DNA of 64,000 nucleotides, taken from assembly GCA_017307355.1 (NCBI GenBank), contig JAFKFG010000009.1:1-64000 (forward strand). Reading direction: 5' to 3'. A program made the position numbers and the translations under genes. Below, piece by piece: positions 39,586 through 40,536 of this stretch. Within the stretch, counting starts at the first letter, position 1; each line of letters begins with the position of its first letter. This DNA comes from Alphaproteobacteria bacterium. GTDB taxonomy: Bacteria; Pseudomonadota; Alphaproteobacteria; Micropepsales; Micropepsaceae. The notes beneath the pieces are model-generated. The model was not told the origin of the DNA and did not search any database. It was given only the letters and a program-made list of their open reading frames with translations.

Positions 39586-40536
39586 TTAAGCGATACGCAA
39601 CAGCAATGCCGTGGCGTCGTCGCTTTTCTTAAACCGCGGAAAGGTTTCACCCAGCGGGTCCGCGTCTTCGATCTCGCGCAATTGCCTGCCCAATGCAGCA
39701 AGCCCTTTGTCTTTCGCCCCCGCGATCAGTCCTTGCATGTCATATGCGCCATAGTCGCTGACCAGGGCGAGGAAGCCATCGCTCGCGATCAGCACGGTTG
39801 CGCCGGCCTGCAAGGACATCATGTGCCGCGAGGCATGCCCGGCGGCGCGCGCATCCGGCGAGAACAGCCAATTGCGGCCGCTGTTGATGCGATTGCGCGC
39901 GGCGCGCAGCAAAGGCTCGATCTGAGGCCGGTTGATGCCGGAGGCCGCGGACATGCCCGCCATCTGCGCCACCATCCTTGCCCGCGCCGCTTCGGCCTCG
40001 CGCTTCTCCAACGTCTCGCCGACCGCTTCGATCTTTCCATTCTGTTCGACGATCGCGGCGCAATCCCCAAACCATAAAAACTGAACTTCTTGCCCCCTCT
40101 GCCCTTCGCTGGCTCGAGAGCCAGCTACGGGGCTCGGTTCGCTTGGGCGCGAACCTCGATCCCCCGCCAGCGTGCTGCGCACGCGCGGGGGCGAAAGGTC
40201 ACGACCAAGGCTCACCAACATCATTGACGCACAAGGCGTCTGCCACTTCTCGCGGATCGGTTCGCGGGTCAGGCCGGCAAAACTTTTCTCCGCATCGGCC
40301 AGGGCATGCCTCAACGCGTCTTGCGGCGCATCGCCATCCGTCAGATGCGCGGCGAGCCGGCGGGCGCCGAACTGGGCGATCCAGGCAGCATCGCTGGTAC
40401 CAGGCAGCAGCGACGGGCCCAGCGGCGTCGCGCCATCCAGCACCAGGGCGGCACGATCCAGATGCGCCAAGGCATCCTCGTTCGGCTTGGCGGGATCGCC
40501 CGGCAAGGACAGCTGATCCAGCAATGTCAGGCTCAT
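39586..40536 (-). CDS. PP2C-type protein phosphatase with an in-frame palindromic insertion
   Basis: A 316-residue PPM/PP2C-fold phosphatase. Metal-site text is visible: KPNEDALAHL, ALVLDGATPLG, the ASMMLVSL strand, FLWFGDCAA, TVLIASDGFLALVSDYGAYD and the final KSDDATALLLRIA. Between strands MMLVSLG and FLWFGDC are about 41 extra residues rich in Arg, Ser, Gly and Pro (residues 112-152), encoded by a palindromic repeat. In a normal PP2C fold this is a short hairpin turn, so the insert may loop out harmlessly. Last gene of the DUF1285-nudL-cca-PP2C operon, overlapping cca by 4 bases. Substrates unknown. Confidence 0.82.
   Translation of the reverse strand: MSLTLLDQLSLPGDPAKPNEDALAHLDRAALVLDGATPLGPSLLPGTSDAAWIAQFGARRLAAHLTDGDAPQDALRHALADAEKSFAGLTREPIREKWQTPCASMMLVSLGRDLSPPRVRSTLAGDRGSRPSEPSPVAGSRASEGQRGQEVQFLWFGDCAAIVEQNGKIEAVGETLEKREAEAARARMVAQMAGMSAASGINRPQIEPLLRAARNRINSGRNWLFSPDARAAGHASRHMMSLQAGATVLIASDGFLALVSDYGAYDMQGLIAGAKDKGLAALGRQLREIEDADPLGETFPRFKKSDDATALLLRIA
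40081..40203. repeat. palindromic element inserted in frame within the PP2C gene
   Basis: The block contains a hairpin CCCCCGCCA-GCGTGC-TGC-GCACGC-GCGGGGG (40162-40192 region), a TGGCTCGAGAGCCA palindrome near 40109 and a TTCGCTTGGGCGCGAA inverted pair. The outer stem text matches the intergenic hairpin at 1478-1512, while the inner stem differs but remains paired. Length is a multiple of three and no stop codon arises in the gene's frame. Confidence 0.75.

Follow-up and report, generated by a model that had tools for sequence, protein, structure and literature searches.

A genus-restricted, REP-like palindromic element in frame in a loop of a predicted PP2C-fold phosphatase in Micropepsaceae

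How does a run of DNA hairpins come to lie, in frame, within the coding sequence of an enzyme? The question is raised by a gene on the minus strand (39586..40536; ATG at 40536; 316 amino acids) in the window, i.e., the whole 64,000-nt stretch of DNA analysed here. An earlier note, made from the sequence alone, had proposed that a palindromic element interrupts this gene, read as one for a PP2C phosphatase. The open reading frame is uninterrupted across the insert, whose translation, LSPPRVRSTLAGDRGSRPSEPSPVAGSRASEGQRG, is flanked by SMMLV and FLWFGDC. The AlphaFold model of the protein (pTM 0.82, mean pLDDT 83) has the predicted fold of PP2C phosphatases in the PDB, with PstP, tPphA and PPM1K as the top Foldseek matches (probability 1.00), and the host protein can be taken, on the model, for a PP2C-fold phosphatase. 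The proposal that both halves keep PP2C features holds for the modelled fold but not for Pfam, where SpoIIE scored under the cut-off (E 0.05) and PP2C was not called; a sequence-based PDB profile search gave no clear phosphatase match either.

In the model, the insert lies between beta strands 101–109 and 148–155, in agreement with the placement between core strands first proposed; its size, put at some 41 residues, is rather an excess of about 36 codons (57 residues versus 21 in empty orthologues, for an insert of about 115 bases). Residues 113–144, which correspond to the insert, have pLDDT values below 50, and the insert is predicted to form a disordered surface loop in an otherwise well-modelled fold (the disorder prediction was built on 14 sequences). 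The start codon of the phosphatase gene shares ATGA (40533–40536) with the stop codon of an upstream tRNA nucleotidyltransferase-like gene, and because of this overlap, the two genes are suggested to form an operon.

The inserted element (40092..40206, minus strand) is recognised by a covariance model of the repeat family described below (R1, E 1.9e-5) and by BLASTN. It consists of a first hairpin, CCCCCGCGCGTGCGCAGCACGCTGGCGGGGG (40161..40191), seen in the RNA fold and conserved family-wide with paired changes; an optional middle hairpin, GGTTCGC-GCCCAA-GCGAACC (40136..40155), recognised by sequence comparison; a hairpin with the GTAG tag, GCCC-GTAG-CTGGCTC..GAGCCAG-CGAA-GGGC (40101..40132), which folds and whose outer pair covaries; and a G-rich 3′ tail, AGAGGGGG (40093..40100), identified in the family alignment and adjoining gene 3′ ends in intergenic copies (all minus strand). 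The basic layout is hairpin, GTAG hairpin and GGAGGGGG. The nearest occupied orthologue (L086) lacks the middle hairpin, which some intergenic copies possess. The RNA fold of 40075–40210 (minus strand) has a free energy of −69.2 kcal/mol versus −55.8 ± 3.7 for 200 dinucleotide shuffles (z = −3.66), none of which was as stable. Together with the open frame and the R1 match, this confirms both the hairpin-rich nature of the insert and its reading as a palindromic element in frame. In the orientation and phase in which it is inserted, the element encodes a hydrophilic peptide (AGE-VAGSRxSEGxRG).

A BLASTN search with the insert in the 3.49 Mb host genome yielded 46 matches at E ≤ 1, and the exact pattern GTAGC..GCGAAGG..GAGGGG occurs there 26 times, versus none for the reversed control. 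Model R1, trained on 56 copies, gave 100 matches in this genome at E ≤ 0.01, about 50 of them strong. The family consensus reads CACAGGCCCG-CCTCCCCC(hairpin)GGGGGAGG-TGGCC-GTAGC(stem)GCGAA-GGCC-GGAGGGGG. GTAGC is almost invariant in the alignment while the paired stem varies, and the stem base pairs covary: the outer pair of the GTAG hairpin is GC in 35 of the 56 copies and CG in 19. The strict pattern was found in 14 of the 23 genomes of the genus that were searched, the host included. Across 289 genomes sampled from the whole class, the pattern occurred in all four members of the genus, with single matches in two of the 285 others; in other genera of that sample, matches to the reversed control were at least as frequent as those to the strict pattern. 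The genomes of four further relatives with the PP2C gene contain 26–59 matches each at E ≤ 1e-4. A search of Rfam returned nothing at E ≤ 1. The family is thus a genus-restricted set of interspersed, palindromic, REP-like elements of about 85–120 bp, with two or three hairpins and a GTAG tag. A second repeat type in the host genome (loci L007 and L023–L030) has hairpin 1 in common with it and carries a 3′ hairpin AGATGTCTTC...GAAGACAGATGGGGG and no GTAG. An extra module near GATCTAGCGCYTGTTGCAGC is located upstream of the element in L100, L103, L107, L117 and L120; such a module precedes many copies, and the repeats are therefore mosaics.

Most copies are intergenic; copies inside genes are rare. 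Using a simple codon-based gene caller, we placed 129 intergenic copies: 76 between co-directional genes, 43 between convergent and 10 between divergent ones. The G-rich end faces the 3′ end of a gene in 91 cases, at a median distance of 4 nt from the stop codon (within 10 nt in 70 of the 91). One copy (L002:1497–1596; host contig C39:2889–2986) directly precedes a lumazine synthase-like gene, and because it ends with GGAGGGGGTAATG right where that gene starts, its G-rich tail may serve as the ribosome binding site. Another copy (L153:2703–2792; contig C103 of genome G008) overlaps a gene at its N-terminal coding end; this gene has a Tat-like signal (MGRRAFIGGA).

The earlier note had called for a genome search for the same palindrome in other coding sequences. 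Screens based on open reading frames only produced long, domain-free spurious frames, and we therefore adopted a codon-score test (codon model trained on the window), calling a copy in frame when both flanks carry a coding signal in one frame. The initial view that PP2C holds the sole coding copy in the host genome was dropped once further loci had been examined, and two antisense frames (L137 and L254) were set aside as spurious for their weak scores. In all, the element is in frame in ten genes of the genus, PP2C and at least nine others, in six genomes. The host genome adds genes for TspO and a putative Smr protein; relatives add seven more: an N-formylglutamate amidohydrolase (FGase) and a ROK kinase (both in G006), an aldo/keto reductase (AKR) and an MBL-fold protein (both in G016), an AnmK-like protein (G031), CcmA (G015) and a 2OG-Fe oxygenase (G017). 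All nine have coding signal on both sides. The names derive from Pfam or PDB matches, except for Smr and AnmK, which are readings of the sequence.

In several of these proteins, the insert shows as a gap against a solved structure: in TspO (query 153→186, chain 69→79), CcmA (107→136 versus chain 102→107), the oxygenase (256→295 versus chain 259→263) and AKR, where the alignment gap coincides with the insert. The Pfam domain of FGase is broken in two by the element. The TspO orthologues found in the same genus, as well as the nearest Smr orthologue (in G014), carry no insert. Where the complete element lies in the sense orientation (PP2C, TspO, FGase, AKR and AnmK), a single frame is used in five out of five genes, giving a peptide ...AGEVxVAGxRxSEGRRG that ends in VAGxRxSEGRRG or a close variant; in the antisense orientation, the frame PLRPS..A is used in three of four. 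All in-gene copies that were folded keep their hairpins (z from −2.4 to −4.7).

We then compared the PP2C loop across 42 orthologue sequences, which include some from one genome represented twice. The segment from ASMML to GDC is exactly 21 residues long in 32 of them; that is, the interrupting segment is missing from most orthologues, as the earlier note had expected of a lineage-specific insertion. It measures 57 residues in the window, 49 in L086 as well as in L088 and L032 (the last two identical at the loop), 46 in L093, 42 in L033, 26 in L087, and 23 in L089 and in L038 and L090 (the latter two identical at the loop). Among the carriers whose DNA was folded, none had the segment encoded by non-palindromic DNA, which would have marked it as an ancient part of the protein: L086, L032 and L093 still fold hairpins. 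In one more carrier, L033, the insert is degraded and element-derived. L086 has the element of the window minus the middle hairpin, and L088 has another subtype; subtypes of the element differ by 5′ CTTGGTCGTG with GATGCCC/GGGCAG versus CACAGGCC with GTGGCC/GGCCGG. In L087 and L089, the short loops resemble the leftovers of an element whose hairpins have been lost. In a protein tree computed without the loop segment, the window, L086, L087, L032 and L089 are grouped, while L093 and L033 stand elsewhere, with empty neighbours.

Could the insert be an old, integral part of a PP2C subfamily, its palindromes a by-product of G+C-rich coding? Its presence in several orthologues would fit, and it is ancestral at least to the clade of the window, L086 and L087. 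This reading is nevertheless contradicted by the empty orthologues, 32 of 42 with exactly 21 residues, and by the intergenic copies; the same DNA also recurs in unrelated genes, and its stem pairs covary, so that we regard it as extremely improbable. A single ancient insertion in the ancestor of a clade of about 20 rows, followed by many losses, is a more serious alternative, if still an unlikely one. The window clade has the loop, orientation and phase in common with L093 and L033, and there are apparent remnants in L089 (GACCGGAGGGGG), L087 and perhaps L038; yet many losses would be required, each back to exactly 21 residues, and the element subtypes differ. Moreover, the inserts of L093 and L088 are 78% alike while their flanks are 68–74% alike, a pattern that would favour separate arrivals or copy exchange over one old insertion. 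Because several lineages hold different subtypes and apparent remnants, the loop was probably entered more than once, and we infer independent entry in at least two lineages.

The inserts of the window and L086 are likewise closer (91%) than their flanks (79–86%), which is unexpected for a purely neutral loop unless palindrome constraint or conversion acts. This conservation, and the hairpins kept in every in-gene copy tested, could speak for recruitment, in which the peptide of the loop or hairpins in the mRNA would regulate the phosphatase or its translation. Such a role is rather improbable: the same peptide occurs in unrelated proteins, L087 and L089 seem to be without hairpins, and the orthologues vary in length and modules.

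We are, therefore, left with good confidence in a genus-specific, REP-like palindromic element that inserted in frame in the PP2C loop and is tolerated as a disordered surface loop. A member of the family would have entered the beta-hairpin loop ahead of the GDC motif, preserving the frame, in an orientation and phase that give a hydrophilic peptide; the effect on the protein was probably near-neutral. The usual site of the family is just past gene ends; copies would have spread by transposition-like dispersal, and strong selection against disruption would let only in-frame copies in exposed loops persist, the loop copies being survivors. The host genome (G000) contains no Y1_Tnp/RAYT gene (PF01797), and the RAYT-type genes of relatives G014 and G016 have no element copy within 1.5 kb; RAYT was accordingly ruled out as the mobiliser in the host. 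No target-site duplication could be defined.

GTAG REPs consist of GTAG and a short palindromic stem. They occur in tens of copies near the 3′ ends of genes, chiefly where the neighbouring genes converge or run in the same direction, and occasionally within genes (Di Nocera et al. 2013, PMC3733652). The family described here has GTAG beside a short palindromic stem, numerous dispersed copies near the 3′ ends of genes in the same gene-orientation pattern, and occasional intragenic copies; the re-use of the PP2C loop resembles the recB gene of two Xanthomonas species, where different REPs occupy about the same site (PMC3733652). Unlike GTAG REPs, an upstream hairpin and the GGAGGGGG tail are fused to the GTAG hairpin, GTAG occupies a GGCC/GGCC-closed internal loop, and the host has no RAYT; the GTAG hairpin alone fits the 20–40 bp REP unit, whereas the repeated unit here is about 85–120 bp. 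MITEs (ERIC, NEMIS) are also short non-coding repeats with complementary ends (here CCTCCCC...GGAGGGG) near gene ends, but we found no terminal inverted repeats of 15–30 bp, target-site duplication or parent IS.

Rickettsia palindromic elements (RPEs; Ogata et al.) are inserted in frame in numerous genes that are unrelated to one another, where they encode a recurrent peptide (PMC10969869); the present element, too, lies in frame in ten genes and encodes a recurrent peptide. It works like an RPE but differs from the RPEs in its tag: R. conorii RPE sequences have a CGTC end (PMC3733652), whereas the present family has a GTAG hairpin and, by eye, no CGTC in its consensus, a distinction drawn from the tag only. 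The genomes are also larger and most copies intergenic. The accompanying statement that in-frame palindromes are rarely noted in alphaproteobacteria beyond Rickettsia was overstated: intragenic, in-frame REPs have been reported in many bacteria, including the alphaproteobacteria E. lithoralis and S. alaskensis (PMC3733652). In-frame REPs, alphaproteobacterial ones included, have thus been known since 2000–2013; what is new is this element family, together with the bias in its frame and the probable re-occupation of the PP2C loop. In a limited search of the open literature, we found no description of the family, of its single-frame use, or of the set of PP2C alleles in which the element is present, absent or partly deleted.

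More tentatively, the element may have a preference for site and frame and repeatedly re-enter the PP2C loop, as well as loops in other enzymes; its mover would then be a factor other than a RAYT encoded by the host. If that were true, disordered loops bearing a standard peptide would arise from it naturally and repeatedly. For protein-coding palindromic repeats beyond Rickettsia, the phosphatase gene adds a clear example that is open to comparison: its alleles are occupied, empty or partially deleted, and this allele set lets the tolerance, the surviving frame and the reversibility of such insertions be tested.
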